Positions 6,703 to 42,192 of a stretch of DNA of 64,000 bases are shown piece after piece. The DNA is from Spartinivicinus ruber (lineage in GTDB: Bacteria > Pseudomonadota > Gammaproteobacteria > Pseudomonadales > Zooshikellaceae). Numbering within the stretch: the stretch's first letter is position 1; each line of letters opens with the position of its first letter. The position numbers and the translations under genes were made by a program. Location: the NCBI RefSeq assembly GCF_011009015.1, contig NZ_CP048878.1, positions 370,501-434,500 on the forward strand, read 5' to 3'. The notes below the pieces were generated by a model. The model ran no database searches. It worked only from the letters and a program-made list of their open reading frames with translations, and was not told the DNA's origin.

Positions 6703-8001
6703 TTACAAAGTATTAGCAACTGCTTTCAATTGATTCAGCATTTTATGGCCTAACGCTGGCTCAGTCATGCAAATAAATGCAGCCAACCCTTCAAGATGGG
6801 CCAATGTTTCACCTTCTCTTAGCGGTTTGCCATTTTTTAAGTTATGGATAGCAGCCCTTAATTCCCGTTTAGTTTTTTGTGGTACACGGGGTGTTCCTTG
6901 ACCATTCACAACCAGGCCAGTGATTTTTTGTCTGCCGCCTTTACGAGTGATTCGAGTTTTTTCCGGGTGAATAATAAAACCTTCATCTTTGACAATTTGC
7001 TTTATTACATGCATTAGCTTACCTAAATTTGGCTGTTTGTCCTTGCCATCTGGCAGGCTGAAGGTTAAATCATCTGCATAGCGGCTATAACGCCAGCCGT
7101 ATTTTTCAGCTATGCCTGTTAGCCGTCGGTCTAGCTTTAAACATAGCGCATTGGTAATCATTGGGCTGGTAGGAGCACCTTGAGGTAAACAGCGTGGCCC
7201 CATGGAAACAAAGTAGGTTTTGTTTTGATCCTCAACAACTTCCCTCGGGGCTTCAGTGACTAACAAAGCTAATAAAGTGGCTATTTGCTCTCGATAACCT
7301 GCTTTTCTAAATAAGCCTTTCACCCGTTTTAAGGTAATAGTAGGGAAGAAATTCTCCAGGTCCATTTTCAGGATGATTTTGGAGTTGGTATGAACTTCGG
7401 CATTACTTAAAATAGAACGACCTGGAATAAAACCATGGGCAGCACCATGTACAATTAATTTGCGGGTAATATTGTCATTAATCCAATATTGCGCCTGTTT
7501 TAACAGTGTTTTTGGTGCCCAAATAGCTCTGTCACTGCCGTCTTTTTTCGGAATGGTAAAACGCCGATAATGTAACTCAGTTGCTGCATCCCGATGGAAA
7601 GCTAGCCAGCGTAATTGAGGAATAGTAATGCCTAATGCGTGGGCTAACTGTTGTGGTTTATCTAAGGGTGGTAGTTCGTTTTCAGCGGCACGTTCTTCGG
7701 CATTATTTAAATCCCAACGATCAAAATCATCATGGTCATTCCAATAAATGCCGTCACCTAAATGAACAATGTGGTTGGCTTTATAGGCTTGCCAAGCAAC
7801 TTGTTTTAAGCGTTTTTTCTCAGCAGCTTCAGCTTTTAATTCTTTTTTATACCGGTCTAATTCTCGTTTAGACATATTATCGGTATCACGGCGCTTTACT
7901 AAAAACCCGTGTTCGCGTAATTGGCCATCGATATAGGCATTCATACTGCCGGCTTTTTCGATAGCATTCCATAGTTGATTAATTTTACTTTGTTGTTTCA
8001 T
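6703..8001 (-). CDS. retron reverse transcriptase
   Basis: The last gene of the four-gene operon makes the DNA part of an RNA-DNA hybrid (msDNA) from a dedicated ncRNA template. From the ATG at 8001 it is 432 residues; an upstream ATG at 8022 overlaps the previous stop and lacks a better ribosome site. An N-terminal extension of about 110 residues precedes the RT fold. Retron hallmarks are present: SNAEVH (NAxxH motif, about residues 200-204), LPQGAPTSPMITN, catalytic YSRYADDLTFS (YADD about 308-311), and KITGLVVN (VTG-type motif with I for V, about 359). A group II intron RT would lack NAxxH and carry maturase or HNH domains, which are absent. The gene follows the SWIM-WGR gene by 4 bases, indicating co-translation. 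Confidence 0.93.
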   Translation of the reverse strand: MKQQSKINQLWNAIEKAGSMNAYIDGQLREHGFLVKRRDTDNMSKRELDRYKKELKAEAAEKKRLKQVAWQAYKANHIVHLGDGIYWNDHDDFDRWDLNNAEERAAENELPPLDKPQQLAHALGITIPQLRWLAFHRDAATELHYRRFTIPKKDGSDRAIWAPKTLLKQAQYWINDNITRKLIVHGAAHGFIPGRSILSNAEVHTNSKIILKMDLENFFPTITLKRVKGLFRKAGYREQIATLLALLVTEAPREVVEDQNKTYFVSMGPRCLPQGAPTSPMITNALCLKLDRRLTGIAEKYGWRYSRYADDLTFSLPDGKDKQPNLGKLMHVIKQIVKDEGFIIHPEKTRITRKGGRQKITGLVVNGQGTPRVPQKTKRELRAAIHNLKNGKPLREGETLAHLEGLAAFICMTEPALGHKMLNQLKAVANTL

Positions 8002-8005
8002 ATGA

Positions 8006-9886
8006 TTAGTCCGCTGATGCATCTAAATAGCCCTTACTAATTAACTTCTCGACTTTCGCCAAATAGTCGTTTCGGGCCATTTCTACGGAATTAAATTGAA
8101 AGCGTTGTAATCGCAAATTGGTACCTGTTCGCCCCCAGCGGCAATTAACCCGTTTATGGTCAAGGGATATTTGATACAAATGTTCCCCTTGTTTATCTCG
8201 GCGACTATAAGTACGGGTTTCTACAGTAATGGTTGAACGGGATTTGCTGCTGTTTTTACGCTGAATTTCCCGTTTGGCAAAAGCTAATCGTAAGGCAATT
8301 AAATGTTCACAAGGGCCTGCTTTTAAGCCTTGTTTACGAAAAAGGCTACAACTGCATTCGGCTTTTGAGACAAAACCTTCTTCAGAAATTAAAAACAGTG
8401 GTCGATAGTCCCGTTTATCTTCTTTTACTTCTACCTTGCCGGTTACTTCTGTCCCTGTGCCATAAATACGGTTTTCGCTGCTGATTGTAACCGTATTTTT
8501 TCGCGCTAATAAGTCATGGGCAACTCGTTCCCGTTGGTTACGAAACTCCAGTCGTGGTCGATCTAACAGAGTATTGGTCAATGGCCGAAGGCGGTAAACC
8601 TGTTGGGCAATATCATACATCAACTGTCCATGTTGGCAGCCAAGCTGTAATGCAGCAATCAATTCAGGTTTTTTTAATTGGGTTGCTTTAGCTAGATCAT
8701 TCAAACTGGCAAACCAGTGTTGAGTCAGGTATTTAATGACCTGTTCCAGTGCCTGATTGGTCTGATCGCTTTTGTCAGCCTCTGATTTTCTGGGTAATAG
8801 TAAATCAAAGGTACATGCTTGCGACCAATCATTGGCGGTAAATCCGGTTAGACCTAAAGTTAATGTCATTGGCCCACAACGTAATACCCAAAAGCAGGGC
8901 AGGCCACTTCCGGCAATATGTACATCTACTGAATCAATAAATGGTAAGAGCCGCTTTAACAGCATCAAACGACGACGGCCCCAGAGCCTGACCACTTTAG
9001 CCTGTTTGCCTTGGTAAATACCAGCACCCGACTCAATCACTGTTTCCCAGGGTTCTAGCAATAACCGGGGAGCTTCTCCTGGCACTAGTTCAACCCGCAA
9101 GCCACGACGTTTCCCTTTAACATCGGCATTCATTCGTAAGTGGCGCAAGCAGTTGTAAATATCCATTGGTGCTAGGGTAAAGCTATCACTGGGTAACATG
9201 GCGGCGGATTGCACTTGCAGAAAGCCCCGTAGCCAAGAGTCAGGTACCTTGATTTGCTTTTCTAAAGTACTGTCTTTCCCTTCAACATCGACAGCTACGG
9301 TTTCTTGGCCAATCCGTAAGGTGGTGTCGCGGTAGCTACGGAATTGCTGAATGCTTTCATTTAGTGCATCACTAAAGTCAATATTGGTGGTACCACAAGA
9401 GGGTTTACTTTCTAACTCAAATGCAGATAGATCGATAGCCAGGTTAGCGTAAGTCCCTTCATCTTTAGAAAACACTTCCAATATCAGCTGATCCGGCTGC
9501 ACGCTGATTACTGGGTCTAAAATCAAGAACGCTTGCGGATCATTTCTCAGTAGCCAGTTAAAGTAATCTTGTTGGGCTTGCCAGGCATTTTTATTCGCCG
9601 ATTCATTACGCATCCGCCGATAAGCTTGGTAAGCGGTGCGATCTTTCGGTTTATAGCGATAATCACTCCCAACAATGGCATACAAGGTTGAAAGTGCCTC
9701 GCGAAAAGCCATGGGTTGTTTGACCTTGCCTGCCAAACTTACTGGGTCTCGCTTAATATTGCCAAACAGGCTGAGTTCTACCCCAGAATCTTTAGCTGTC
9801 GTTTGGCTTTGCCCTGCATATTCGATAGCGATCTCGGTATGAGAAGGAGAGCTTACCGCTTCCTCTGTTTTGTTTTCATTGCTCAT
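8006..9886 (-). CDS. SWIM zinc-finger and WGR-domain protein (retron accessory)
   Basis: I place the start at ATG 9886 (MSNENKTEE), 2 bases after the preceding stop with AGGAAAC upstream, giving 626 residues; a longer frame to 9931 would overlap the previous gene by 43 bases. The first about 480 residues are mixed helices with no domain I recognise. A SWIM zinc finger follows near residues 510-550: AECSCSLFRKQGLKAGPCEH, i.e. CxC...CxH. The C-terminus is a WGR domain (RTYSRRDKQGEHLYQISL ... VNCRWGRTGTNLRLQRFQF), the fold that binds DNA ends and nucleic acid in PARP proteins. It is tightly coupled to the retron RT gene, so it may bind the msDNA or target DNA. That role is inference. Confidence 0.85.
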   Translation of the reverse strand: MSNENKTEEAVSSPSHTEIAIEYAGQSQTTAKDSGVELSLFGNIKRDPVSLAGKVKQPMAFREALSTLYAIVGSDYRYKPKDRTAYQAYRRMRNESANKNAWQAQQDYFNWLLRNDPQAFLILDPVISVQPDQLILEVFSKDEGTYANLAIDLSAFELESKPSCGTTNIDFSDALNESIQQFRSYRDTTLRIGQETVAVDVEGKDSTLEKQIKVPDSWLRGFLQVQSAAMLPSDSFTLAPMDIYNCLRHLRMNADVKGKRRGLRVELVPGEAPRLLLEPWETVIESGAGIYQGKQAKVVRLWGRRRLMLLKRLLPFIDSVDVHIAGSGLPCFWVLRCGPMTLTLGLTGFTANDWSQACTFDLLLPRKSEADKSDQTNQALEQVIKYLTQHWFASLNDLAKATQLKKPELIAALQLGCQHGQLMYDIAQQVYRLRPLTNTLLDRPRLEFRNQRERVAHDLLARKNTVTISSENRIYGTGTEVTGKVEVKEDKRDYRPLFLISEEGFVSKAECSCSLFRKQGLKAGPCEHLIALRLAFAKREIQRKNSSKSRSTITVETRTYSRRDKQGEHLYQISLDHKRVNCRWGRTGTNLRLQRFQFNSVEMARNDYLAKVEKLISKGYLDASAD

Positions 9887-9888
9887 AG

Positions 9889-12800
9889 TTAGTTTCCTGC
9901 CACCCTTGCCCGCTTGGAACGGCGCACACATCGCCAGGCCATTTTGCGTAAATCTTCATCAATGGTTTCAGTTGTGGCCACATTCACCAATGCCGCTTCA
10001 CCCTCAGTACTGGCTAATTGGGCCAATGCCTCAATAGCCCCTAAACGGGTGTTTTCAGCTAACTCGTCTTTCAAAGCAGTGGCCAGTAAAGCTTCAGTGC
10101 CTTGGTTGCTGATTACCTGTGGTAGCACAACTCCCTGCAAATGTGCATTTGCCACGCTAGCCTCGTTCATTGATTTAGCATCAAACTGCTGGGTGAGTTG
10201 CTGATAAACCGAACGATCACTGGCGGCTTGGGCTGCCAGGCCTACAACTGGGGTGGTTTGGCTGTTAGTAATCACGCTAGCAGCCAGGCTACGGATTCGG
10301 CTATCGGTATGGAAAACGGCTTCAGCTATTAAAGACTGAGTAGCCTCAGTCTGTTTAACGGATGCTAGTGCTTGGAAAGCCGCAAAGCGAGTGTCATTGA
10401 ATGCAGTGTCATCTTGGTGGGCAGTGGCTAAAGCCAACAGCACATCAGAGCTACAGCCTGCTACACCAGCAACCCAGATTAATCGCTGCAAGGTAAGGGT
10501 GAGGTTTTCGCTCTCGTCAGAGTGATAGTGACTTATGCTTTGCTGTTCTAAAACTCGCATTTCCGCCCACTTATCAGCCCAGGTGGCGAGTGACTTATCT
10601 ACTGCTTGAGTAATCGCTTTAGTTGTAGCTTGGCTGTAGCCAACTACAGTAGCGGCGACCTCCACTGCTTCCCTATGTGGGCTAGCTAAGGCTGCAATTG
10701 CTTCTTTCAATGGCAGTGGCTCTCGGTTCAGCAAACTCATCGCAAGCTGGGTACGTACGCCTATGGCGCAGTCAGGCAGAATACGAAACATCTCACTGGC
10801 TTCACCAATGCTACAAACCCGCTTTAGTGCTTGGCTGAAGTCGTCATTATTACCAAACGACTCAGCACCACAACGCAGGAAGGCATAATCAGGGGCCAAA
10901 GCGTCTTCCCCAAATAAATGCCGGGCACTGTTGAGTGCAGCTTCGCCCCAGTCATAATAGTTAGCACTGTTTTCTGCCAATACAGCGAGTAATAAGTCTT
11001 TGCTGGCTGGGTCGTCGTTATAGCCCAACACTTCAAGAGCGGTTTCCCGGCCAAAGAAGTCACTATCTTCGGCTTTTTCACGAACGAGCTGCCAGCCAGC
11101 TCGGGTATCAAAGTAGCGCAAACCATGCAGGCCATTAATCACCAAACCCCAGCGATCACTGCTCACAAAACTTTTTAACAGCTCAAAAATTGTCTCGGCC
11201 TGGTCAGACTGACCTAAGTGCCCGATGGCTTCAGCCGCCACTTCCTGCAAGGCATGCTCATCATCTTTGGCTAGTCGTAATAGGGTATCGAGTGCGCGTT
11301 CATCTCCTAGCTCACCTAATGCTTGCACTGCTAATTGGCGGAGTCTTAAGTCTGTTAGGGTGTCTACACCTGCCAGTAAGATACTGATGCCCTGGTCATT
11401 GCCAGCTAAGGCTAAGCTGTATGCAGACCAAAACTGAGTAATTGGGTCTTGATTGGCTAGTGCACTGACCACGGCTGTGCTTGGACCACTGCGTTTGCGA
11501 ATCCGCCAGCCCAGGCTAAAAACACTTAGCTGACGAATATCATCATTAGCATGACGGGTTAGGGTGGCGAGAGAGTCATTAACCGCATCAGATGGTGACC
11601 AGCGGGCGCCCTCTAACAGCCGTAAAATGAGCTTGGTTTCTCCCAGCGCTAAGCAACGGTCTAACAACTGTTGCAATAGCTGATCATGGCGGGGGTGCTG
11701 TTGTTCAAGCCAGCTTTTATCAACCTTGTCATCTTCCGGGTCTTCAATCGGCTGGTCATAGCCGCTGATGATTAGCAATGCGTTGAATGCGCCTTGGCGT
11801 AATGAAGTGTTATCCATCATGGCTAACAGCCTTGGGGCAACTGCTGGATTACGAAAACCACCCGCTGCATTAAATAAACTATTGAGCTGTTCTGCTGAGG
11901 TTTTGCCTAGCTGTTCCAGTTTATCCACCAAGTCGAGCAGAGCATTGGCTCCTTTGGGCTCTCCCAACTTAACCAGTGCCTGAATTCCTCGGTTCTGCTC
12001 ACGGCTAAACCCTTTGCCAGTGTGGTTCAGCAGCAGGCTATTCAGCAGTGTAACCAGCGCATCAAATGCCTTTGGATCTTTCTTAACGGCTAAGGCGTAA
12101 GTGCTGTTTTCTCGCACTTCCTGATGGCGAGAGTTAAGAGCTTTATGCAGCAGTGCCTGAGCTTTGGGGTTATCGTAATCTTCAACTAACCAATCAATGC
12201 CTCTTAGCCTGACGGTTTTATCAGCTGCATCCAGAGCGGCTTTGGCCACTGTCACTGGCTTAGCTTTTTTTAGTAATAATTTAGCGGCTTCCAGCGCTAG
12301 GTTATCGGTACGACTGACCATCGCTTGTTGCAAAATGACTTGGCCTTGCTTCAGACTTTCGCCTTCAGTCAGCATTTCCAGGGCTTTCACCCCCAGGTCG
12401 TTATGACCGGTTTCCAGACACTCATTCGCTAGTAGGGTGGTATCGGTTCCCAATGTTTGTAGCTGCTCAAGAGCGTAAAGCCGCACAGTTTGGTTGGGGT
12501 CACCCAAGGCCTGCATAAATACAGATTCTGCAGCACCTAATAAATCGTTGTTACGCTTGACCATATTGGCTAGCAAGGCTAAGGCTGACTGACGTACGGT
12601 GATGATCGAACTATCAGCATGGCGCACCTTGCGTCGCCCTGGGGTATTGCCTTGCTCGCGAACTAAGCCGCAGTAGGTGCCAAAGGCCACTTGCTCCAAC
12701 TCAGCTTGATCCACTTTGGTTTTAGCCAGTTTGTGTTTCTTGGTAGCTGCTTTTAGCTCATTGATTTCAGTTTTATAGCGCTGGGTATGGTGCTGCCAGG

Positions 12801-15800
12801 CTTGATCCCAAGCATCCTGCTTATTAGCAAATAAGTATTCCAATAGCTGGAGGGTTTTGCTGCGTAGACGGCTGCTGCCGAATACCACCAGCTCAGCAAA
12901 TAGATCAATGGTTTCAGCACGGATTTGCCATGGCTCACCAGACTGGTTGTTAAACACAGCGTTGAGTAACTCAGCATAGGAGGGCTTATCGTGTAAGCGC
13001 TCAATGGCCTGGGCTGCAATTAACCGTAGTATTGGGGTTTCAGCCGATAGCATGGCCAACAAAGGGGTAGCGAAAGTATCATGGCTTTGTCCTGGTTGCC
13101 CTTTATAACTGGGCAGCAAATGCATCATTAAGGCAGCTATACGGACGAGTTGATCACTGTCATCCAGGTAAAAACTCAGCCTGTCAGCAAATGCCTCACC
13201 AAAAGCCATTAATGCACTCACACAAAGGACTTTTTCTGCCTGGGTTTGGCTTTGCTCTAAAGCTAGTTGCATAGCTAGACTATTATCACCAGGCATACCA
13301 GACTCGCTGCCTAATAAGGCCAGGCCCTGGGCGGCTGCTAGTTTGACCTCGTTATCCTGATGGTGCAGTGCTTTTTCTAGAGTGGCTTGTTGACTGCTAT
13401 CACAACACCAGACCAGGGCTTTAGCTGCAGCCCGGCGAATCGAGCTGATGTCACTTTCCAGCAGCGGTGTAATGGTGCTTACACAGGCAGGTGACTCCAA
13501 CAGGGCTAAACCTGCCAATGCAGATTCAACCGTAGTTTGCCAGCGTTTGGCATCCTCTTTGTTATCCGGTTTTGTTTGGGTTACCAGGGTTAATAATGGC
13601 GCCAGTGCAGCCTCATCACCCAAGCGCGCACAGGCACTAGCAGCTTGTAATACCACATCCTGGTATTCGCTGGCCATTGCCTGTTGAAGTGCTTTGGTGG
13701 CTTGGGCATCGACTAAGGCTTGAATAACCTGTTTGCGAACGTCCCGTTCACTGTCATTGATGGCTTCAACCAGTAGCTGTTGGGCTTGCTCACCAGGCTT
13801 TTTGTTGAGCTCACTAATGGCTGTTAAGCGTGTATCCCGATAAGGGCTTTTTAGTGCTGCGGCCAGTGGGGCGTAGTCGCGGCCTTTGGTTTTCTTCAGG
13901 GCAAAGGCTAAGGTTTCATCACGAATAGTTTTATCTGGGTCATTCAGTAACTCCAGTAGCAAAGACCAAGCCCAGTGGTGGCTGGCTTCGGCTATTAGCT
14001 CGGTTTGCACTTCCCGGCGAATATCCGCATGGGTACTTTGTAAGGCAAATCGTAATGCTGCTTCATGGCTATCACCCACTGGTAGATTGAGTACTGCTTT
14101 GAAAGCCTCACTACGGACACTAGGGTTACCATCATTAATTGCACGTTGGAAGAGTACTTGGTGGGTGTCTGCAATGCCCTCTTTTTTCGCTACCCTTACC
14201 AGGGCTTGTAAAGCCCGGCGGCGAACATCTTCATGATGGCTGATTAAGCCGAGCTGTGCGGCTGTAACAGGTTGTTTTTCGTGAATGACAGACAGTGCAG
14301 AAAAGGCAGCATCTCTGACTTCAATTGCAGAGTCATTCAGAAGCGTTTGTAGCCGCTGGTCAGCCCGTGGGTCATTCAAATTAGCCAATCCATGGCAAAC
14401 CATAACCCGAGCACTTTTATCTTGTTCACGGCTGAGTTGCAGTAATAAGCCAAACGCCCGTGGGTCATTGAGCAAGGCTAAGCAGTGAGCACCGAGTAAG
14501 CAGCTATCCAGTGACAAGCTCGCTGTGGCTTGTAACAAAGGTGCATAATCCGTTGCTTCCAGAGCCAGTTTGGTTTTGCGGACTTTGGGGGGCTCTTTCG
14601 CTGTTTGTTGGCTGGCCGTAGTGTCTTTTGATCCCTTAGGCCCCTCAGTAACATCAGTCTCAAAGGAAAACTGCTCAATATCAAACAGCAGCCGGTGGAG
14701 GTTTTTATCTCGCTCGCGAATGGCTTTGGCCAGCGCTGGGCGACTGAATAAACTAACTAAAAAGGCGGTTTGGCGCACTTCGTTGTCGTCGTCATCCAAG
14801 CGTCGGCGGAGGGTGGATATAACCCGAGGTTGCTCCAGTAAATTCCGTTGAAATAGCCTAACCAGCGATGCCCGACGAATATCCGCCTGACTTGCACCAA
14901 GGGCAACAATATTGGCATCTGGATTAACGACTTCTAGACGAGCGAGAGCCAACATTCGCACTGCATAGGCTTTGACATCTAATGCACTGATTAAGCGCAT
15001 CATTGCTCGGTCATCGTCCGCCGCTACTTCTGCTAGTGCATTTACCGCGAGCTTACCCACATCCACTTGGCCGGTTTTAAGGGCTAAAGCCATTGGGCGA
15101 AGTGTTTCATCAGTGGTGAATCGTTCGCGTAGTTTGGTAAAGGCAAAAGTTCTAACGGCTTCATCCTTGTGATTTAAGTAGGATTCTAATAACCGTTGGG
15201 TATCTGGGTGTTGAATAGTGGCAATGCGCTCGACAATCAGTTGGCGTAATGCAAAGTCCCGGTCTTGGTGGATTTGCTTATCCAACAGTTGCAGTGAGGC
15301 TTTATCACCATAACGGGTTAAGCGCTCAATAGCCGTTTGTCGATGAGTGACTTGATGGCTGGCTAGCTCGCTTTTGGCCAGTATATATGTGTCGTAGAGG
15401 CGGTGGGTAAGTTGGCTGAACTTGCCAGCCGCATCCAGTGCAATAACGGAAAAACGCCCACCACTGGCTGCTACCAAGTGGGGGCGGTTATGAATATGCG
15501 CAATGACTAAGCCTGAAACGGTGCCTATACCTTCACTAAAAGTCGATGGGCGCGTAGCACCGGCGCGTAGCCAGCTTTTGCAGGTTTTATCCTGAGAGCC
15601 TGTAATGAAGCGCTCGCCGGCTGTTTGCACAATGGCAGTGATGGGTGCTGCATGGCCAGCCCCCCGGTCACGGTCTTCTGCTTCCAGCTTGCCCCGTGCA
15701 TGAGTCAGTAGCAGTTTGTTGTCGTTACCAGCTGATAAAAACCGCAGCTCAGTTGGGTCAAAAGCTAACGAGGTAATAGCACCTTCGTGAAGCTTCGCCG

Positions 15801-16398
15801 ACTCGCTCAGCTTAAATGCTGACTGGTCTTCCGCTTCGTTTTCAAAAACGAAAACGTTGCCTTTACTCGTGCCTGCCACTAACCATTGACCACTGGCATC
15901 AGTCGCGATAGCGGTTCCGGTTTCTGATATTTCAGGAGATACTTTAGGAGGCAGTCCAGAAGATAGCCCAGAAGATTTCTCAGAATATAGCTCTAGGGTT
16001 TGTAACTGGGTGCCTTTAGTTTGGTCGACAATAACAATTTGGTTGTCAATTAAAACCCCGAGTCGCTGCTGGTTTAATGTCACCAAGGCTTTAATTGGGT
16101 TTGGTGTTTTTTCAGTATTTTTAGTGACTTGGTTATTTAACTGGGTAATACGTTTACCATTGCAGAAAATATTGCCAGTAATATCACCAAGCCAAACTTT
16201 ATCGTTAAGTACTAAAAGTGCACTGGCATTATTTTCTAGCAGGGTTTCGCTGAGCGCCAGGGTTTCTAAATTGAGTTGATAGCAGGGGGTGAGCTGCTTT
16301 TCGGGGTGCTCAGTTATAAAATAAACGGTATTTTCACTGGCCCCTAACGCTTTAATGACACCACAGTAGGGGAGATATTTTTCTATTAATTCACTCAT
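9889..16398 (-). CDS. giant WD40-HEAT repeat protein (retron accessory)
   Basis: This 2169-residue protein starts at ATG 16398 behind AAGGGGAA. The first about 340 residues show WD40-type blades: LHEGAITSLAFDPTELRFLS, HAAPITAIVQTAGERFITGS and QDKTCKSWLRAG. From about residue 360 to the end it is an almost continuous array of HEAT/PBS-lyase-type helical repeats, for instance NDPRADQRLQTLLNDSAIEV then RDAAFSALSVI; LGDERALDTLLRLAKDDEHA; HLGQSDQAETIFELLKSF. There is no nuclease, protease or transmembrane signature I can identify. Such a protein is expected to act as a scaffold or sensor. It lies 12 bases after the HEAT-BRCT gene and 2 bases before the SWIM-WGR gene, in one operon with the RT. Confidence 0.9.
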   Translation of the reverse strand: MSELIEKYLPYCGVIKALGASENTVYFITEHPEKQLTPCYQLNLETLALSETLLENNASALLVLNDKVWLGDITGNIFCNGKRITQLNNQVTKNTEKTPNPIKALVTLNQQRLGVLIDNQIVIVDQTKGTQLQTLELYSEKSSGLSSGLPPKVSPEISETGTAIATDASGQWLVAGTSKGNVFVFENEAEDQSAFKLSESAKLHEGAITSLAFDPTELRFLSAGNDNKLLLTHARGKLEAEDRDRGAGHAAPITAIVQTAGERFITGSQDKTCKSWLRAGATRPSTFSEGIGTVSGLVIAHIHNRPHLVAASGGRFSVIALDAAGKFSQLTHRLYDTYILAKSELASHQVTHRQTAIERLTRYGDKASLQLLDKQIHQDRDFALRQLIVERIATIQHPDTQRLLESYLNHKDEAVRTFAFTKLRERFTTDETLRPMALALKTGQVDVGKLAVNALAEVAADDDRAMMRLISALDVKAYAVRMLALARLEVVNPDANIVALGASQADIRRASLVRLFQRNLLEQPRVISTLRRRLDDDDNEVRQTAFLVSLFSRPALAKAIRERDKNLHRLLFDIEQFSFETDVTEGPKGSKDTTASQQTAKEPPKVRKTKLALEATDYAPLLQATASLSLDSCLLGAHCLALLNDPRAFGLLLQLSREQDKSARVMVCHGLANLNDPRADQRLQTLLNDSAIEVRDAAFSALSVIHEKQPVTAAQLGLISHHEDVRRRALQALVRVAKKEGIADTHQVLFQRAINDGNPSVRSEAFKAVLNLPVGDSHEAALRFALQSTHADIRREVQTELIAEASHHWAWSLLLELLNDPDKTIRDETLAFALKKTKGRDYAPLAAALKSPYRDTRLTAISELNKKPGEQAQQLLVEAINDSERDVRKQVIQALVDAQATKALQQAMASEYQDVVLQAASACARLGDEAALAPLLTLVTQTKPDNKEDAKRWQTTVESALAGLALLESPACVSTITPLLESDISSIRRAAAKALVWCCDSSQQATLEKALHHQDNEVKLAAAQGLALLGSESGMPGDNSLAMQLALEQSQTQAEKVLCVSALMAFGEAFADRLSFYLDDSDQLVRIAALMMHLLPSYKGQPGQSHDTFATPLLAMLSAETPILRLIAAQAIERLHDKPSYAELLNAVFNNQSGEPWQIRAETIDLFAELVVFGSSRLRSKTLQLLEYLFANKQDAWDQAWQHHTQRYKTEINELKAATKKHKLAKTKVDQAELEQVAFGTYCGLVREQGNTPGRRKVRHADSSIITVRQSALALLANMVKRNNDLLGAAESVFMQALGDPNQTVRLYALEQLQTLGTDTTLLANECLETGHNDLGVKALEMLTEGESLKQGQVILQQAMVSRTDNLALEAAKLLLKKAKPVTVAKAALDAADKTVRLRGIDWLVEDYDNPKAQALLHKALNSRHQEVRENSTYALAVKKDPKAFDALVTLLNSLLLNHTGKGFSREQNRGIQALVKLGEPKGANALLDLVDKLEQLGKTSAEQLNSLFNAAGGFRNPAVAPRLLAMMDNTSLRQGAFNALLIISGYDQPIEDPEDDKVDKSWLEQQHPRHDQLLQQLLDRCLALGETKLILRLLEGARWSPSDAVNDSLATLTRHANDDIRQLSVFSLGWRIRKRSGPSTAVVSALANQDPITQFWSAYSLALAGNDQGISILLAGVDTLTDLRLRQLAVQALGELGDERALDTLLRLAKDDEHALQEVAAEAIGHLGQSDQAETIFELLKSFVSSDRWGLVINGLHGLRYFDTRAGWQLVREKAEDSDFFGRETALEVLGYNDDPASKDLLLAVLAENSANYYDWGEAALNSARHLFGEDALAPDYAFLRCGAESFGNNDDFSQALKRVCSIGEASEMFRILPDCAIGVRTQLAMSLLNREPLPLKEAIAALASPHREAVEVAATVVGYSQATTKAITQAVDKSLATWADKWAEMRVLEQQSISHYHSDESENLTLTLQRLIWVAGVAGCSSDVLLALATAHQDDTAFNDTRFAAFQALASVKQTEATQSLIAEAVFHTDSRIRSLAASVITNSQTTPVVGLAAQAASDRSVYQQLTQQFDAKSMNEASVANAHLQGVVLPQVISNQGTEALLATALKDELAENTRLGAIEALAQLASTEGEAALVNVATTETIDEDLRKMAWRCVRRSKRARVAGN

Positions 16399-16410: not shown

Positions 16411-19400
16411 TTAAGCATTGGCCAATTGGCCGCCCTTTAATAATTCGCGACTCTGACTGGTTTGTGCTGACAGTTCAGGATGTTTGGTAATAATGCGAGT
16501 AACTGCCACTAAGCTGGCAGCATGCTCACTTTTGCCGCGAGAACCTTTAAATTCCTGCAATAAAGGCAGAACGTAGCGAGCAAATTCGACATCAGCCACG
16601 GCAATATCCCGTAGAGTTTCAATTAAGTTCAACTTAGCTTTGCGAGTGGGGAGTGGCTTTAATTTATTAATAACTTCTCCCTTAGCTTTTTGATTTGCTG
16701 TTTTTGATCCTTTGTTTGAAGCACCATTTTTGGCTAATCGGCCTGGGGCAATTTCAAATAAAATTCGGCGCAAGAATTGTTCTAAGCTGTCATGACTGGC
16801 TGGTAATGCAGTTGGTTTAGTAGGTGCACCATCACCTAAATTTTGTTGAGCCGCTTCTGCTTGCTGTTTGGCCTTTGCCCCAAGCGTAGCAACAGACGAC
16901 AGTTGTGGCTTCCAGCCAGGGGTAATGCCTCGGTCACGATACCAATGCCAGAAACGTTGAATCACAAAACCGCGCACAGCTCGATCAGGGCTTTCGGTAA
17001 GCCGGAATAATTCTTGAGGCAGTTGTAAACGGGGATGTTTTCCAATTAACACCATACCCAACTCCCGTGCGGATTTATCTGCCGATTCGCAAAAGCTATA
17101 GACGGCTTCTGGAGTGAGTATATCTGGGTCGATGCGATAACGTTTATGTTCTTGGTTGTTATCAGCAGTTAAGGCTTTGGTTATAAAATTCCGTACTGAT
17201 TTATAATTGGATTCGCTTAACGTCACAATATGCTCAATAGGCGGCTGCCAGCGAGCAAATTCCCAGTGGGCCAGTTCTAATGCAAAAGCACGGATATTGC
17301 CACGGCTGTCATTAAATAGCGGTTTAACACGTTCAAAGCTTAGAAAATCAGCAGGAATTTCTGCGCCTGGGTCTACGGGCCGATCAGTTTCTTGTAAACA
17401 AATATCTGGGTGGTGATGGCGAATATACGACAGTGCAAATAAAGTGAGTGGGGCATCTTCTTTGCTTGGGGTGGTGATCATTTCCCACAAACGATGACAA
17501 CCTGCCTCAATGGCATCGTCAGAAAACTCCCGTTGTTCACCTGACAGCATTTGTAGAAAAGCAGTTTCGGAAATAATTTTTAATTCGGCACCTTCAGTAA
17601 TTAATGATTCTGCTTTAACTTGCTTGGAACCTTTGCGCCCTTCTCCATAAAGCGGGGAGCCTTCATCGCCAATCACCAGCCAGTTCAGATTTTTCGTTAC
17701 ACCTGAAGCATTGCTACCGCCAGCGACAGTCACTTTATTTGTGGCTTCTTTTCGAGTCATTTTGGCGAGTTTGCCAGTAAATAAAAAACTATCGCCGCCA
17801 AAATCCACGTTAATTTCAGTGTCAGTACAGGCGGCTTCTTTTGATGCAGGTTGACCTTCTGTTTCAGGCGCAAAATCAGCTGGTAAAAAGGCCCGGTTCA
17901 TAACATCTACAGCAAAGTCGTGATAAAGCGGTTCGCTACGTTCAACTAATGTCATCAACCAACTAAAACTTAATTGCTCTGGAGTAAAGTGACGTATATC
18001 TGCCAGCCACTCAAAAATGGTTTCGGCCAAATCAGTCGTATAAACTAAATCTTCAGCCCAGGGTTGGTTGTGTTTAATTTCTGCTAGCCAACTGTCTTGT
18101 TCCCAACTGGGGTGATAAACGATGGTTTTTAAAAACTCCAATTCCAGTGATTGAGGAGTTAATAACCCTTGGTCTACCCATCTTTCGATATAACGCTGAG
18201 TGTCGGGGTTGATGAGCAGTTTTTTGAGAAAATCACTGGCAAGGGTATTAAGATCAAAATCCGTTAATGCTTCACAAGCAAAGCGAATGGTTTTTCGCGC
18301 CCGACTTTGTTGATAATCTAATTTTTCTAGTAACTCACAAAAGTAACTCGCCTCCAAGGTTTTATTGGAATGATGTTGAGTAAGGTATTTAACCGCGAAA
18401 TCAAAACCATTAGAGGCGGGTTTAAGCAAGCGTTGGCTATACCAGGCGGGCGTGAGTTCCCGTTTGGAAAAATACTTAAGTAATGCATCGGTAGCAAATT
18501 GACAACCATAATAGGTTTCTAATATCGCTCCCCAGTTTTCCAAACCAATGCCATTGCGTGGTTCGTGGGTCTGAATTAAGTCAAACGCCATCTGCCGAAC
18601 AGTTTCATTACTGTTATCAATTAATCGGATTAATGCAGTAATTGATAGGTCTCTTGCATGGGTACGCGCATAAGTAGCGGCGTAAATACGGGCATTATCT
18701 GAAGGGGAGTTAAACAATGCTAATACGGTGTTGTGTAAGCCTAATTCTTTAAAGGCGGCTTGTTCAAAACGAGGGACATTATCCAATACCCAAATAACAA
18801 ATTCGTCAATGGTTGCACTTTCGTTTCCTACTAAGCGGCTAATCCATTGTGGCTCAACTTCGCGTAAACTGGCACGAAAATCAGTCTTTAAGGCTGTGGT
18901 GGCATAGCGCCGGACTTGTTCTGACTGGGCTTGTTCTAATAAGGCAAATAATGGCCTGGGGGTTAGTCGCCAACTGTCGGCAAAGGCTCGGTATTTAAGT
19001 AAGGTACTGGGGCGACCCCGGAAGGTAAAACGGTTGCGATTATATTGGCCATTTTCGTGATAAAAAATATGATTGGCTATCCAGGTACGTGACCAGTTTG
19101 CATCATCGGTATAATGGGCTAATACATCACATGCGGTATCAGGGTAGCAGGCAGGTAGACTTTCACCCAGACGGCGTAAGTAACGCCAAGCACGACGGGT
19201 TAAGTACACTAGGGTATTACGACTGATTTGAAAATCGCCATCGGCCAATGCTTGATCAAAGCGGGCTGCCAATGCACCGTAAATGAGAGTGTCGTTGTCA
19301 GCTTCAGCTTGTTTAAAAATGGCTTTTAATGCCCGCCAGGGTCCATAAGTTAGCTCGATTTTTGGAATAACTGAAAGTAAACACCACCGACTGAATGCAT

Positions 19401-19710
19401 CATTTTTTTCATAAAGGGCAAATAAAATCTGGTGGAGTTTTAAGCATTCAGTTAATGGCACTTCGGCATCAGCTGCTTCTAACGCTTTAATGCGTTCTAC
19501 CCGTAATGACCATTGTTCTTCTTTTGGTTTTTTGCGAAAAGTACTGGTGGAAATTTCAGCAATAAATGAGTCAAAGCTATCGGCACCTTGGCGGGTAGGC
19601 TTTTGCGGTGTTTCGATTTGCTGGGAAAGTTGAACAATGAGTTGTACAAGCTGAGGGTCGCTTACCTGCAATGCTCGATGTAGTTGATCGAGCGTCAATA
19701 TGAGTGGCAC
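16411..19710 (-). CDS. HEAT-repeat protein with internal BRCT domain (retron accessory)
   Basis: The 1099-residue product starts at GTG 19710 with AGGGGATG upstream. Helical repeats fill residues about 80-600 and 730-1080 (e.g. NSPSDNARIYAATYARTHAR, DNSNETVRQMAFDLIQTHEP, SPDRAVRGFVIQRFWHW). Between them, residues about 638-723, lies a BRCT domain: GDSFLFTGKLAKMTRKEATN, VTVAGGSNASGVTKNLNWLV, then a basic GRKGSKQVKAESL and ISETAFLQML. This pattern resembles the BRCT of bacterial DNA ligase. BRCT domains bind DNA ends or phosphopeptides. A basic, Ala/Lys-rich linker near residues 960-1030 could contact nucleic acid. It is the first gene of the retron operon, about 200 bases downstream of the candidate msr-msd RNA. 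Its role as sensor or effector is unproven. Confidence 0.88.
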   Translation of the reverse strand: MPLILTLDQLHRALQVSDPQLVQLIVQLSQQIETPQKPTRQGADSFDSFIAEISTSTFRKKPKEEQWSLRVERIKALEAADAEVPLTECLKLHQILFALYEKNDAFSRWCLLSVIPKIELTYGPWRALKAIFKQAEADNDTLIYGALAARFDQALADGDFQISRNTLVYLTRRAWRYLRRLGESLPACYPDTACDVLAHYTDDANWSRTWIANHIFYHENGQYNRNRFTFRGRPSTLLKYRAFADSWRLTPRPLFALLEQAQSEQVRRYATTALKTDFRASLREVEPQWISRLVGNESATIDEFVIWVLDNVPRFEQAAFKELGLHNTVLALFNSPSDNARIYAATYARTHARDLSITALIRLIDNSNETVRQMAFDLIQTHEPRNGIGLENWGAILETYYGCQFATDALLKYFSKRELTPAWYSQRLLKPASNGFDFAVKYLTQHHSNKTLEASYFCELLEKLDYQQSRARKTIRFACEALTDFDLNTLASDFLKKLLINPDTQRYIERWVDQGLLTPQSLELEFLKTIVYHPSWEQDSWLAEIKHNQPWAEDLVYTTDLAETIFEWLADIRHFTPEQLSFSWLMTLVERSEPLYHDFAVDVMNRAFLPADFAPETEGQPASKEAACTDTEINVDFGGDSFLFTGKLAKMTRKEATNKVTVAGGSNASGVTKNLNWLVIGDEGSPLYGEGRKGSKQVKAESLITEGAELKIISETAFLQMLSGEQREFSDDAIEAGCHRLWEMITTPSKEDAPLTLFALSYIRHHHPDICLQETDRPVDPGAEIPADFLSFERVKPLFNDSRGNIRAFALELAHWEFARWQPPIEHIVTLSESNYKSVRNFITKALTADNNQEHKRYRIDPDILTPEAVYSFCESADKSARELGMVLIGKHPRLQLPQELFRLTESPDRAVRGFVIQRFWHWYRDRGITPGWKPQLSSVATLGAKAKQQAEAAQQNLGDGAPTKPTALPASHDSLEQFLRRILFEIAPGRLAKNGASNKGSKTANQKAKGEVINKLKPLPTRKAKLNLIETLRDIAVADVEFARYVLPLLQEFKGSRGKSEHAASLVAVTRIITKHPELSAQTSQSRELLKGGQLANA

Positions 19711-19742: not shown

Positions 19743-19841
19743 GCGAGAGACTTTTATGGTTTGTTGTCTTCTCTCTTCATCCCATAGCTCATAAGCTCAT
19801 GGGATTTCATCGTTTGACGGCCTCCCCTAAAAGCCTCTCGC
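19743..19841. repeat. hairpin repeat R3, between retron RNA and operon
   Basis: Outer inverted arms GCGAGAGaCTTTTA (19743-19756) and its near complement (19828-19841) enclose an inner hairpin ATCCCAT...ATGGGAT around AGCT/AGCT on the minus strand. The left arm is preceded by CCTTC, giving CGCGAAGGGTA on the minus strand. It shares TTTTAGGGG plus CGTC and the CGCGAAGRGTA edge with R2 after the RT gene. It lies in the transcribed leader between the candidate ncRNA and the HEAT-BRCT gene. Confidence 0.65.
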
Positions 19842-19910
19842 ATTGGGTATTGGAAATTTTTAGGAAGAGTTGGGAAAGCGCTCCCTTAAAATTAAGAGAG
19901 CCTAACCCCT

Positions 19911-20164
19911 ATTCTGGAAGGGTTTACTACTAAACCTGGAACATTGACGACTCACTGATCCCACCGACGGTAGTACCCCTATTTGTCGTGCGGAACCCCG
20001 ATCGGCGTGGTTGTTCCAGACCGCAACGACAAATAGGGGTACTACCGTCGAAGTGGGGCTGAAACAGTCGTCATTGTGCTTGAAAGTTGGAGGACTATTC
20101 CCCTCGGTTAGCGCAACGCTAACCACAGTGCAGAGCACTCAGCTAAACCTGTACTTCCAGCAAT
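19911..20164 (-). ncRNA. candidate retron msr-msd RNA
   Basis: Read on the minus strand, the region has retron ncRNA layout. The a1 strand (20164-20144) holds CTGGAAG and GGTTTA; these pair with TAAACCCTTCCAG of a2 (19926-19914), with a flanking ATT/AAT pair. Directly after a1 comes TTTAGCTGAG, like the conserved TTAGC context of the branching guanosine; the candidate G is base 20143. The msr part has two tight stem-loops: 5-bp AGTGC/GCACT (20139-20127) and 8-bp GGTTAGCG/CGCTAACC with a 3-base loop (20124-20106). The msd part is a very long hairpin: outer 8-bp stem 20073-20066 with 19952-19945, then a perfect 25-bp stem 20050-20026 with 19989-19965. A promoter lies just upstream and the RT operon just downstream. 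Exact ends are inferred. Confidence 0.78.
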
Positions 20165-20190
20165 CGCTGACTTACATCATCGATGTGCTT

Positions 20191-20219
20191 TTTATAACAA
20201 AGCGACATTTATGTCGCAA
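20191..20219 (-). promoter_or_regulatory. sigma70-type promoter with internal palindrome, retron
   Basis: On the minus strand TTGCGA (20219-20214) and TATAAA (20196-20191) are separated by exactly 17 bases, a near-consensus promoter. Transcription would start near 20184, just ahead of the a1 strand of the candidate msr-msd. A perfect inverted repeat GCGACAT-TT-ATGTCGC (20202-20217) lies over the spacer and part of the -35 box, and could be a repressor operator or a DNA hairpin. Confidence 0.65.
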
Positions 20220-20490
20220 CTAAAAAATGAATTATTGATATCAGAAAAATAAACAAGTGATAAACCGTCGTATTTCAAGACCGACAATGGTCGTATTTAC
20301 AAGTGGTGTATTACTTATTCAGAACAAAATTTATACTGATTGATTTGATGTGAGTGATATAACAGTTTAGATTTGTTGCAAGTAAACTGAACGACATCAA
20401 ATGTATAGGGATAGAAAGGATGAGAGATATAGATAGGGGCATAGTATAAAAGGTATTCACGGAATAACAGGGTATTCTTCCACTACCTTT

Positions 20491-24867: not shown

Positions 24868-25898
24868 CCTAATTATCATCATACCTAAGCTATATTTAGT
24901 AGCTTACCTGGTAGTGGAGGTGTTCTCAGTGCTACAAATGCTAGCCTAGGAATAAATTCTACTAAGCTAAATCTTCGATTAAATCGATACTGAAATTCAG
25001 CAAGATAACGTTGTGCATATTTAGCGCGAATAGCATGATAAGTGCTACGTAAAGCACTTTTTAAGTTTCCAAGGATGGTGTTAACCCAATAAAATTCAGG
25101 TTCCTCTACTGATGCACGACCACCACCGCATACAATTTTATCATGAAGACAACCTGCTTCTATGACACCATTAAAACAGGCCAGTCCATCGGAGATTACG
25201 GTACTGCCCTTGGCCAAATTCTGCCTACTCCAAGCCGTTATCTCTTCTTTATTAAACCCTTTTAAAATGCTCAGTTTAATTCGTGTCGGTTGACCTTGTT
25301 TTGTTGTTTCTACGGCTGCTACAAAAGGTATTTTCCCATCTGCTCCCCTACCTCTTTTGCAACCTGTACGCTCGCCACCAAGATAGGCATCATCAATTTC
25401 AATAAAACCCGACAATTGCTTGGTGCCTTCTCTTTCTTGCATCACTTTCATGAGCTTATGTTTCATTCTCCAGGCAGCTTGATAGGAAATACCTAAATGG
25501 CGATGTAATTCTATGGCTGATATACCTTTTTTGTCTTGGGAGATCAAATACATCCCTTGGAACCAAGTCTTTAATGGTAATTTGGTTGATTCAAAGATAG
25601 TACCTGCAGTTACAGATGTTTGCTGGTGACATTTATAGCACTGCTGAAGCTTTCTAGTAGTGAGTTGACAGCATTTGTCGTATCCACAATTGGGGCACTG
25701 AAAACCTTCTGGCCATCGCAATTTGTATAAGGTATTAAAGCATTGTTCTTCTGTACCATATTGTTTGAGAAACTCGTTTAAACTCAGGCCTTTTTGAAAT
25801 TGAACTTTGTTGATAGCCATTATTTATACCTTCTCAATTAAGTTTCCATGCTGTTCAAATATACAGCAGTTAATGGCTTAGGTATAGTGATAATTAGG
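24868..25898 (-). mobile_element. IS1595-family insertion sequence
   Basis: The element is 1031 bp with terminal inverted repeats starting CCTAATTATCA and reaching ATACCTAAGC, differing at about two positions. It is flanked by a perfect 8-bp target duplication TAAAATTA (24860-24867 and 25899-25906), as expected for this family. It carries one transposase gene whose stop codon falls in the left repeat. The intact duplication points to a fairly recent insertion. Confidence 0.92.
24885..25820 (-). CDS. IS1595-family transposase (ISXO2-like)
   Basis: The protein has 311 residues. The N-terminus carries a zinc ribbon: FQCPNCGYDKCCQL and LQQCYKCHQQTSVTAGTIFE. The DDE-type core follows with GFIEIDDAYLGGERTG (first Asp), TVISDGLACFNGV (second Asp) and the final EFQYRFNRRF region (Asn/Glu-type third residue of ISXO2-like enzymes). 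WVNTILGNLKSALRSTYHAI is also typical. The frame is intact, so it may be active. Confidence 0.93.
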   Translation of the reverse strand: MAINKVQFQKGLSLNEFLKQYGTEEQCFNTLYKLRWPEGFQCPNCGYDKCCQLTTRKLQQCYKCHQQTSVTAGTIFESTKLPLKTWFQGMYLISQDKKGISAIELHRHLGISYQAAWRMKHKLMKVMQEREGTKQLSGFIEIDDAYLGGERTGCKRGRGADGKIPFVAAVETTKQGQPTRIKLSILKGFNKEEITAWSRQNLAKGSTVISDGLACFNGVIEAGCLHDKIVCGGGRASVEEPEFYWVNTILGNLKSALRSTYHAIRAKYAQRYLAEFQYRFNRRFSLVEFIPRLAFVALRTPPLPGKLLNIA

Positions 25899-27317: not shown

Positions 27318-28579
27318 CACTGCTGTCCCATAAGATTGAAACAAAAAAGGCTTAAGTCCCCATAAGTTGTTACAATGAGAGTGCAACCAAACACTGCAAA
27401 ACCAGAGGATTTAAGCCTTGGCTCATCGTAACACAATCTTGCACCAAATACTTCAGTTGCTTTCTAGACATGAGTTTGAATCACTAGCCAATCAGCATCA
27501 TACGGGTCAACGGCTACGTAAAATGACTCGGTGGGGGCAGTTTGTTGCGCTATTATTTGGTCAACTCTCAGGTCGCAATAGTTTGCGTGACATCATTGAT
27601 CACCTATCGATTCAGCAGCATAAACGCTATCACCATGGTATTGGAAATATCACCAGAAGTAGTTTGGCCCGTGTCAATGAACAGCAACCCGCTACGCTTT
27701 ATGAAGCCTTGTTTTATAAGCTATTAAATAAATGTCATCATCATCGGCCAGGGCATAAGTTTCGTTTTAAAAATCCATTGTATTCTCTTGATGCATCAGT
27801 GATCGACTTGTGTTTATCCATGTTTCCTTGGGCAGATTTTCGAAAAAGTAAAGGTGCTATCAAGTTACATGTTGGGTTTGATCATAATGGCTACTTGCCT
27901 GCATTTATGAGTATTACTGAAGGGAAATGTCATGAAATACAGATAGCACGCAGCCTTGATCTCCCCAAGGGGAGTATTCTTGCTGTAGACCGTGGCTACA
28001 CTGATTATCGCTGGTTTAATACTTTAAATGAGCAAGGAATCTTCTTTGTAACCCGACTAAAAAAGCAAGCCAAATACCGTGTACTAAAGCGCCAGCCTAC
28101 CGACAATAGCAGTACAGTCACTTCTGATCAGCACATTCAGTTGACTAGCCAACAAGGGGCTGTTTATAAAGGTCATTTACGTCGTATCGGTTTTAAATGC
28201 CCAGAGACTGGCAACCAATATTACTTTTTAACTAATAATAGTAAGCTCGCAGCCAGCACCATTGCAGCTATTTACAAAGAACGCTGGAAAATAGAGCTAT
28301 TTTTTAAGTGGATAAAGCAAAACCTAAAGATAAAATCGTTTGTCGGTACCTCTAAAAATGCCGTGTTAACCCAGATATGGGTAGCCATGTGTGCTTATTT
28401 GCTCGTCGCTTATCTAAAATTTTCTCATGGAATAACACTATCGATCACTCAAATAGCTCGACTCATGCAACTCACTTTGTTTGAGCGTAGAGAGCTTAAA
28501 GCATTATTTACACCCTCACCACCGAATAATACAGATGATCATAAGCAAATGAGGATGCTGTAAATGTGGGACAGCAGTG
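27318..28579 (+). mobile_element. IS4-family insertion sequence
   Basis: The element is 1262 bp with inverted ends CACTGCTGTCCCA (27318-27330) and TGGGACAGCAGTG (28567-28579). It is flanked by a perfect 9-bp target duplication ATCCAGTAT (27309-27317 and 28580-28588). One intact transposase gene fills it. The perfect flanks and intact gene suggest a recent event. Confidence 0.93.
27418..28563 (+). CDS. IS4-family transposase
   Basis: The protein has 381 residues from TTG at 27418 (AGAGGA upstream). It begins MAHRNTILHQILQLLSRHEF (DUF4372-type head found in these transposases). DDE motifs: SLDASVIDLCLSMFPWA (first Asp), ILAVDRGYTDYRWFN (second Asp), and the YREK signature in YKERWKIELFFKWIKQNLKI (Glu and Lys). 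The end FERRELKALFTPSPP is typical. It looks full length. Confidence 0.93.
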   Translation: MAHRNTILHQILQLLSRHEFESLANQHHTGQRLRKMTRWGQFVALLFGQLSGRNSLRDIIDHLSIQQHKRYHHGIGNITRSSLARVNEQQPATLYEALFYKLLNKCHHHRPGHKFRFKNPLYSLDASVIDLCLSMFPWADFRKSKGAIKLHVGFDHNGYLPAFMSITEGKCHEIQIARSLDLPKGSILAVDRGYTDYRWFNTLNEQGIFFVTRLKKQAKYRVLKRQPTDNSSTVTSDQHIQLTSQQGAVYKGHLRRIGFKCPETGNQYYFLTNNSKLAASTIAAIYKERWKIELFFKWIKQNLKIKSFVGTSKNAVLTQIWVAMCAYLLVAYLKFSHGITLSITQIARLMQLTLFERRELKALFTPSPPNNTDDHKQMRML

Positions 28580-41047: not shown

Positions 41048-42192
41048 TACCAATCGTGGTAAATAATCTGTAAAATACCTGGTCACAGTATTTCACTTAA
41101 TTTGACTAGGAATTTAATAATGGCAAGGATTGCTTCTATTCCAGATGAATTGTATGACTACGACTTTGATGCCTTACTGAACAGAGAGCCACATCCAAGA
41201 ACACGGCTTCGCTTATTAGCGATGGCTCATTTACAAGCAGGTTGGTCTCAAACTGAAATAGCACGAGCATTAAGGAAATCAAACAATACCATTCAGGACT
41301 GGCTCAACCGTTTTAGACGAGATGGCCTTGAAGGACTTTATGAACAACCCGGTAGAGGAAAAAAACCATTTCTTTGTCCTTCACAATATAATGAATTTAA
41401 AGCAGCCGTTATTACCTTACAAAACCATCGTCAAGGCGGTAGAGTTCAGGGTAAAGACATACAACAGTTGCTGCTGGAACAATTTAATATAGACTACAGC
41501 TTAAGTAGTATTTATGAAGTATTGCATAAAGCAGGACTTTCTTGGATTACATCAAGATCTAAACATCCTAATCATAGCCCAGATAAACAGCAAGCATTTA
41601 AAAAAACTTTGAAAAAGAGGCCTTAAAAGTACTTCCCTCATGCGTTTCTCCAGATAAAGTTGATATTTGGTTTCAAGATGAAGCCAGAGTGGGTCAGCAA
41701 AATACCTGTACGCGTATTTGGGCAGAGAAAGGTACGCGTCCACGAGTGGTAAAGCAACAACAGTTTGAGTCAGCTTATCTCTTTGGCGCTGTTTGTCCTG
41801 CTAAAGATAGAGGAGTGGCTCTTGTATTACCTATTGCTAACACAGAAGCAATGAGGTTGCACTTAACAGAAATTTCAAAAGCCATTTCTAAGGGAAGACA
41901 CGGACTGGTTATCGTTGATCAAGCGGCATGGCATACGACTCATCGCCTAGAAATACCTGCGAATATCACGCTATTAAATTTACCACCCGTTTCCCCAGAG
42001 CTTAACCCGGTAGAGCGGATATGGGAAAAACTGAGAGAGGATTCACTGGCAAACCGTTGTTTTAAAAATTTCAATGATATTGTTGAGTCTTGTTGTGAGG
42101 CATGGAATGTATTTGTGAATAAGAAAAATAACATTAAAAGCTTGTGCTCCAGATGTTGGGCTGTTTTAACAAGCTAATAAACAGGATTGGTA
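41048..42192 (+). mobile_element. IS630-family insertion sequence
   Basis: The element is about 1145 bp with ends TACCAATC.../...GATTGGTA and 3-bp (TA-containing) TAA duplications at 41045-41047 and 42193-42195. It carries a transposase gene with a frame change. It sits inside the replication-like gene, whose frame is restored by exact excision. The TA-centred target is characteristic of the family. Confidence 0.88.
41120..42177 (+). CDS. IS630-family transposase (two frames, likely -1 frameshift)
   Basis: The first frame from ATG 41120 (AGGAA upstream) has the helix-turn-helix part: RLRLLAMAHLQAGWSQTEIA, RALRKSNNTIQDWLNRFRRD, then a linker to AFKKTLKKRP and a stop at 41626. The second frame, in -1 phase, continues VDIWFQDEARVGQQNTCTRI (first Asp), HGLVIVDQAAWHTTHRLEIP (second Asp) and LPPVSPELNPVERIWEKLRE (Glu), ending at 42177. 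The switch falls between A7-C at 41590-41600 and the AAAAAG at 41610. Programmed frameshifting is common in this family; a mutation is the alternative. Confidence 0.85.

Follow-up and report, generated by a model that had tools for sequence, protein, structure and literature searches.

The window considered here is a stretch of 64,000 nucleotides (nt) of Spartinivicinus ruber DNA (NCBI RefSeq contig NZ_CP048878.1, positions 370,501 to 434,500), part of a 6.7-Mb genome; for two proteins of the window, the nearest relatives with a species name belong to Spartinivicinus poritis. On the minus strand lies a four-gene operon ending in a reverse transcriptase (RT) gene and, ahead of its first gene and on the same strand, a structured RNA with a core of 247 nt (20160-19914) that very probably represents a type XIII retron's msr-msd RNA. 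In operon order, the genes encode the following proteins (lengths in amino acids, aa):

16411..19710, minus strand: HEAT/ARM protein, 1099 aa; PADLOC HEAT-ARM_XIII, 1199.5 bits; BRCT-like segment at about residues 620-722
9889..16398, minus strand: WD40-HEAT protein, 2169 aa; PADLOC HEAT-ARM_XIII, 2011 bits; Pfam HEAT_2 and WD40
8006..9931, minus strand: SWIM_XIII protein (SWIM/WGR), 641 aa; PADLOC SWIM_XIII, 654.9 bits; predicted layout of PCNA-like clamp (about 65-363), helical part, SWIM finger (about 522-547), and WGR (585-638)
6703..8022, minus strand: retron reverse transcriptase, 439 aa; RT_XIII, 560.8 bits; PF00078, 85.6 bits (cut-off 29.6)

A gap of 12 bases separates the first and second genes, while the second and third overlap by 43 bases and the third and fourth by 17. 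All four products match PADLOC profiles for type XIII retron components, and the type's HEAT/ARM, SWIM, and RT components are found together in the operon. Specifically, the RT scores highest against RT_XIII, followed by RT_other, RT_outgroup (a retron profile), and RT_III-A, and its residues N207, A208, and H211, Y315, A316, D317, and D318, and T368 and G369 are invariant among 18 sequences. These residues correspond to the retron motifs NAxxH, YADD, and VTG, and together with the RT_XIII score they place the enzyme in the retron clade. The HEAT/ARM protein's own Pfam BRCT match (E 0.14) falls under the cut-off, and precomputed PF00533 BRCT assignments are present on many of its relatives among the matches listed; the SWIM_XIII protein's own SWIM and WGR matches lie slightly below the Pfam cut-offs.

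An initial annotation had proposed a retron msr-msd RNA on the minus strand at 19911-20164. The parts of this RNA and its upstream region are as follows:

20191..20219, minus strand: promoter-like TTGCGA-17-TATAAA, found by eye, 30 nt before a1
20154..20160, minus strand: a1 outer half, CTGGAAG; partner 19920-19914
20144..20149, minus strand: a1 inner half, GGTTTA; partner 19926-19921
20143, minus strand: predicted branching (priming) G, in TTTAGCTGAG, TAGC site
20127..20139, minus strand: msr hairpin 1; 100% of cells paired and 4 of 4 pairs changed on both sides (14 rows)
20106..20124, minus strand: msr hairpin 2, GGTTAGCG-TTG-CGCTAACC; 96.4% of cells paired and 4 of 8 pairs changed on both sides (14 rows)
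20090..20105, minus strand: extra msr hairpin 3, from RNAfold; complete solely in the three same-genus alignment rows
20059..20078, minus strand: box 1, CACAATGACGACTGTTTCAG, 5' side of the msd base stem; 11 pairs with box 2
20026..20050, minus strand: 5' arm of the msd rod, a 25-bp perfect stem; pairing kept, sequence free
19990..20025, minus strand: conserved msd tip, including a short apical hairpin; pair identity averages 0.69 here and 0.33 in the stem
19965..19989, minus strand: 3' arm of the msd rod, complement of 20050-20026
19941..19957, minus strand: box 2, CAGTGAGTCGTCAATGT, 3' side of the msd base stem; pairs with box 1
19928..19940, minus strand: predicted reverse-transcription start (template just before a2), by analogy with Ec86
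19914..19926, minus strand: a2, TAAACCCTTCCAG, consisting of TAAACC (19926-19921) and CTTCCAG (19920-19914)

Evidence for this architecture comes from homologous loci. Sixteen distinct loci, counting the window, have a HEAT/ARM match that spans the whole gene or much of it, and in these the RNA was sought upstream of the first gene; two WGR-type loci with HEAT/ARM matches of about 46 bits (L047 and L055) were excluded. A homologous RNA precedes the first gene in 15 of the 16, ranging from the same genus to a metagenome-assembled genome of Verrucomicrobia, another phylum, and the remaining locus, L064, is truncated within the gene by the end of its contig. One of the 15, in genome G1022, is split by the assembly within the hairpin, its ends lying on contigs C20 and C21 (L102 and L062). 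In two loci a tandem pair of RNAs stands ahead of one operon (L059, 4794-5060 and 5147-5413; L060, 778-1044 and about 1124-1390), the members of each pair having similar boxes and msr and different, still paired, stems.

The main alignment, made with MAFFT without structure, holds 15 RNAs from 14 loci and omits later finds (L060's second RNA and those of L102/L062, L103, and L104). RNAalifold identifies 63 pairs, 42 of which include a sequence changed on both sides. Paired cells amount to 93.5% of 941, compared with 71.8% (standard deviation, sd, 0.9) after shuffling, and doubly changed cells to 222 compared with 72.9, a control weakened by the kinship of the copies; sliding columns by 1-3 reduces paired cells to 35-44%, a comparison in which the true register has an advantage because the structure was derived from the same sequences. 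The 6-bp inner a1/a2 helix beside the branch site (helix 1) is paired in 97.8% of cells across the 15 copies with two pairs changed on both sides, so that the loss of a1/a2 conservation named in the initial annotation as grounds for abandoning the idea did not occur. TAG at the branch site is invariant in 15 of 15 rows, and TAGC in 14 of 14 rows of a separate alignment. The two msr hairpins, counted in a separate 14-row alignment with a structure set by the analyst, are jointly paired in 97.6% of cells, 8 of their 12 pairs being changed on both sides. The box 1/box 2 helix is paired in all cells over its 11 pairs, three of them changed on both sides, while helix 6, in the msd tip, is paired in 98.7%; the count for helix 5 is lowered because MAFFT placed the three same-genus rows out of register there. 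The linker before a2 is 13 nt in 15 of 15 rows. The RNA possesses both the a1/a2 inverted repeats beside a conserved G and the msr hairpins and long msd hairpin expected of a retron, and compensatory changes are seen in the branch-site helix, the msr hairpins, and the msd stem. Pairing of the whole a1/a2 arms is weaker evidence than the inner helix: when partners were permuted among 12 representative copies, 168 of 10,000 arrangements equalled or surpassed the true pairing, and the best duplex begins at the branch site in 14 of 15 copies (the exception being L003).

The single sequence folds much better than expected by chance. The RNAfold energy of the minus strand is -127.9 kcal/mol, compared with -87.4 (sd 5.2) for shuffled sequences (z -7.8), none of 200 shuffles folding as well. 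The 25-bp msd stem, both halves of the a1/a2 pairing, and the position of the candidate branching G right after a1, as first proposed, were all confirmed in the sequence. Unlike the centroid, the minimum-energy structure includes a further CAG/CUG helix spanning the branch site, and RNAfold pairs the TAAACC of a2 with a nearby GGTTTA (GGTTTAGTAGTAAACC) in place of the a1 inner half, which the homologue comparison favours as the partner. RNAfold draws three small msr hairpins, not the two originally described; hairpins 1 and 2 both covary. Rfam detects no retron family in the window, nor at E up to 1 in 19800-20300, where microRNA hairpin models, far under their cut-offs, are the sole matches. 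Two further claims need correction. For the promoter said to lie 20 bases upstream, a consensus promoter scan returned nothing at its threshold; hexamers that look promoter-like by eye lie 30 nt before a1. The repeat CAGGTTTAG is exact (20151-20143 and 19938-19930) but not conserved as such; a function for it was rejected, the downstream copy being invariant only at positions 1, 4, and 5 (C, G, and T) in 15 copies. Separately, a short inverted repeat, GCGACATAAATGTCGC, which the scan labels terminator-like, lies between the promoter-like hexamers at 20202-20217 and could be an operator.

The msd combines a fixed length with a free sequence. All 17 complete copies have 101 or 102 nt between the boxes; in 16 of them the longest perfect stem runs to 24-31 bp, and in the other to 20 bp. 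Mean column identity over 105 pairs is 84% in the boxes, 69% in the tip, and 58% in the msr, against 33% in the stem, a value slightly underestimated because same-genus rows are out of register. The window RNA and that of L039 differ at 8 of 47 stem columns (with four double changes) and at 1 of 149 others (msr, boxes, and tip), and the two tandem RNAs of L059 have the same base at 16 of 48 stem columns but at 50 of 50 box columns. Stems are identical between the window and L040, and likewise between L042 and L043. Within the 6.7-Mb genome, the 25-mer stem finds its own two arms only, with up to 3 mismatches allowed. A guide-like role for the stem was rejected, as a 24-mer of it has no exact match in viral_contigs and in the genome occurs only in its own two arms.

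Distribution was examined with R1, a covariance model built from 14 rows of the msr part. One copy was found in each of the five genomes of the window's family, each beside the sole HEAT-ARM_XIII gene, and among 63 genomes of another order the RNA is present in 12, the HEAT/ARM gene in 10, and both in 9. Since sequences of four of the five family genomes and of eight of the nine carriers of both were used to build R1, and match by construction, its information lies in absences elsewhere and in the new matches (G399, G1022, G1038, G1052, G1034, and a second copy in G1055). Thirteen of the 14 matches in the 63-genome search exceed 74 bits. Of the three genomes with the RNA alone, G1038 and G1052 have contigs that stop beside it, so that the downstream DNA is missing, and G1034 gives a weak match; the one with the gene alone is the truncated L064. 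As the G1022 assembly breaks within the retron hairpin, so the contigs of G1038 and G1052 (L103 and L104) terminate in or near theirs; perfect msd stems may cause short-read assemblies to lose such systems. Two RNA motifs found no match in viral_contigs, one of which matched 5 of 55 when run over the collected loci. The RT alignment matches 28 loci in viral_contigs, the best at 39% identity; among plasmids, one record has an RT match at E up to 1e-60 (Methylobacterium bullatum, 41.6% over 83%), and relaxing the threshold to 1e-25 gives 48, one of them covering 80%. Phage matches to the HEAT protein, 19 records, span just 7-10% of its length and, where annotated, are mostly exonuclease, DinG helicase, and DNA polymerase III epsilon/PolC.

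A further feature of the operon emerges from AlphaFold2 models of the SWIM protein, whole and of its clamp part. The modelled fold of residues from about 65 to 363, compared by structure search, is a two-domain clamp matching PCNA and 9-1-1 sliding clamps at about 10% identity; the match lists were filled by the clamp, so that other parts of the protein were barely probed. The predicted PCNA-like fold is computed and at the level of structure only. Unlike PCNA and 9-1-1 clamps, to which it has no detectable sequence similarity, the clamp-like part is fused to SWIM and WGR domains.

Taken together, these data indicate that the RNA is in all probability a type XIII retron msr-msd gene which its own RT is predicted to copy, from G20143, into multicopy single-stranded DNA (msDNA) of about 150 nt; the RNA architecture, its compensatory conservation, its fixed place before the first gene, and the type XIII gene set are established. 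PMC8989520 describes known retrons as priming on the 2'-OH of a conserved guanosine next to a1/a2, and the priming role of G20143 is proposed because known retrons prime likewise. PMC11754653 and PMC8989520 show Retron-Eco1 (Ec86) to share with the window RNA the a1/a2 repeats, the priming G after a1, the msr hairpins, and one long msd stem. It differs in its partner genes and in that the window RNA matches no Rfam retron family and has an msd of constant length. According to PMC11754653, the long msd stem of Retron-Eco1 tolerates change while the surroundings of its priming G do not, and methylation of its msDNA by a phage cytosine methyltransferase triggers abortive infection.

Copying of the RNA into a hairpin DNA for phage defence is likely. 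In the mechanism envisaged, transcription of a single strand would read RNA and genes together, the RT would use the 2'-OH of G20143, adjacent to the a1/a2 helix, as its primer, giving a predicted 2'-5' branch, and the template would be copied from about 19928 up to box 1; both this start and the length of the cDNA are proposed by analogy with known retrons. The cDNA would then refold into a rod of fixed length and free sequence with a conserved tip. Such a rod would suit a partner whose hold on duplex DNA depends on shape, and the clamp-like, SWIM, and WGR parts are candidates for holding it by shape and length irrespective of sequence, while the HEAT, BRCT-like, and WD40 proteins would provide a scaffold. 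A phage that damages, modifies, or unwinds the msDNA might release or reload the complex, which would halt phage or host DNA replication. Contact by the clamp, the trigger, and the effector are all proposals, and the last of these is a guess because the proteins carry no recognised toxic domain, the SWIM/WGR clamp protein on replicating DNA being the least unlikely candidate for killing.

Several observations count against parts of this interpretation. In four of the 15 copies (L003, L058, L060, and L063), the whole a1/a2 arm pairs no better with its own partner than with the mean of the others. The weak R1 match in G1034 (L107, G1034:C455:6372-6450; 38.9 bits) has no operon gene within 1.5 kb downstream. 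A Pfam scan of the four operon proteins (E up to 0.001) found no nuclease, NADase, or membrane toxin family, leaving the effector step without a recognised toxic domain. With respect to the clamp, Foldseek superpositions are loose, with a root-mean-square deviation of about 7-10 A and TM scores of about 0.6-0.7 by target and about 0.5 by query; sequence relationship to PCNA was absent from both a profile search of the PDB (A3; 0 matches at E up to 1) and Pfam (no PCNA match in 41 members). As to position, the RNA does not adjoin the RT gene, although in retrons the two are usually, if not by definition, neighbours: it sits at the 5' extreme of the operon, with three genes and 11.9 kb between it and an RT gene that starts at 8022.

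The position of the RNA directly upstream of the first gene would also suit a cis-acting leader, an attenuator or riboswitch, that is not a template for the RT, and a hairpin with a T-containing tail starts within 26 nt of the a2 start in 10 of 15 copies (a loose scan with no control). This is nonetheless very improbable given that the operon carries a retron RT, that the TAGC-side helix, msr hairpins, and long msd stem are all conserved, and that in sister WGR-type systems a comparable hairpin sequence occupies the gap between SWIM and RT instead of a leader position. There is a slim chance, slightly greater, that the RT uses the template otherwise, protein-primed or unprimed and with no 2'-5' branch, as do some defence-associated RTs such as DRT2 and DRT9. 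The profile ranking, headed by RT_XIII, the retained retron-type motifs, and the invariant TAGC site beside a1 argue otherwise. Least credible is a palindrome that is the end of a mobile element, a miniature inverted-repeat transposable element, or a DNA site bound by a protein. All of these typically contain long perfect inverted repeats, and transposase-like genes are seen by eye in the window; however, the genome-wide search for the 25-mer returned nothing besides its own arms, R1 finds a single copy in the genome, and conserved boxes, tip, and msr flank a stem of free sequence.

The clamp is more evenly contested. It is quite conceivable, if somewhat less probable than otherwise, that the domain is a structural look-alike which forms no ring and makes no contact with msDNA, WGR and SWIM alone binding nucleic acid: the match is by structure alone, with low identity and loose superpositions, and a common fold says nothing on function. 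A more speculative and rather unlikely proposal is that the retron protects DNA replication by means of a sliding clamp of its own: that the msDNA is a decoy primer-template rod, encircled and measured by a PCNA-like ring formed by the SWIM/WGR protein, and that phage contact frees the ring onto replicating DNA and stops replication. If true, free sequence, fixed length, and tandem unrelated stems would allow the stem to change, evading phage nucleases and methylases, while the clamp is kept. A sliding-clamp fold in a retron would link msDNA sensing to the replication machinery, and the role of the large type XIII proteins would become directly testable.

Type XIII retrons are already known through the profiles RT_XIII, SWIM_XIII, HEAT-ARM_XIII, and WGR_XIII, which all four operon genes match. 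Those profiles describe proteins only, whereas the present analysis adds, as predictions, the RNA of the HEAT kind at the 5' end of the operon and the clamp fold. Retron type XIII is treated together in name in one paper, PMC11953036. The literature searched yielded no report joining retron type XIII with its RNA, though an earlier account in the 2020 classification or the 2024 census is possible, and, by title and opening of the abstract, none joining a retron with a sliding clamp; the type is unnamed in the parts available of PMC12548924, PMC8934634, and PMC13405049. HEAT-kind type XIII retrons thereby gain a defined, searchable RNA with predicted ends, from which msDNA can be sought, and which a search confined to the surroundings of RT genes would overlook.

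The same genome contains a second RT_XIII operon (L038, about 8322-15400 on G000:C1), composed of a WGR-type protein, SWIM, and a 600-aa RT. Its SWIM and RT proteins are 35.6% and 38.4% identical to those of the window, and neither HEAT protein of the window finds a match there. Such WGR-SWIM-RT systems, whose first gene encodes a WGR-type protein of about 1050 aa (judged by first residues), belong to the same PADLOC type and have homologous SWIM and RT proteins and a hairpin sequence with an msr-like part, which lies between SWIM and RT and not, as in the window, before the first gene. A perfect stem of 12-19 bp is present in 10 of 10 of these intergenic stretches, a set that leaves out L049 and L052 (no SWIM match) and in which stems were read from sequence. 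R1 weakly touches the msr-like part of three of them (L046-L048, E 0.3-0.9), and in L054 (4400-5420) two tandem hairpin sequences with different stems lie between SWIM and RT. The HEAT-type RNA, then, stands far from its RT, and the sister WGR-type RNA apparently next to it.

Elsewhere in the window, the transposase-like genes noted by eye lie at 24885-25820, 27418-28563, and 41102-42177, and frames sharing first residues with the first and last of these occur near the second RT system (L038, 2549-4350).
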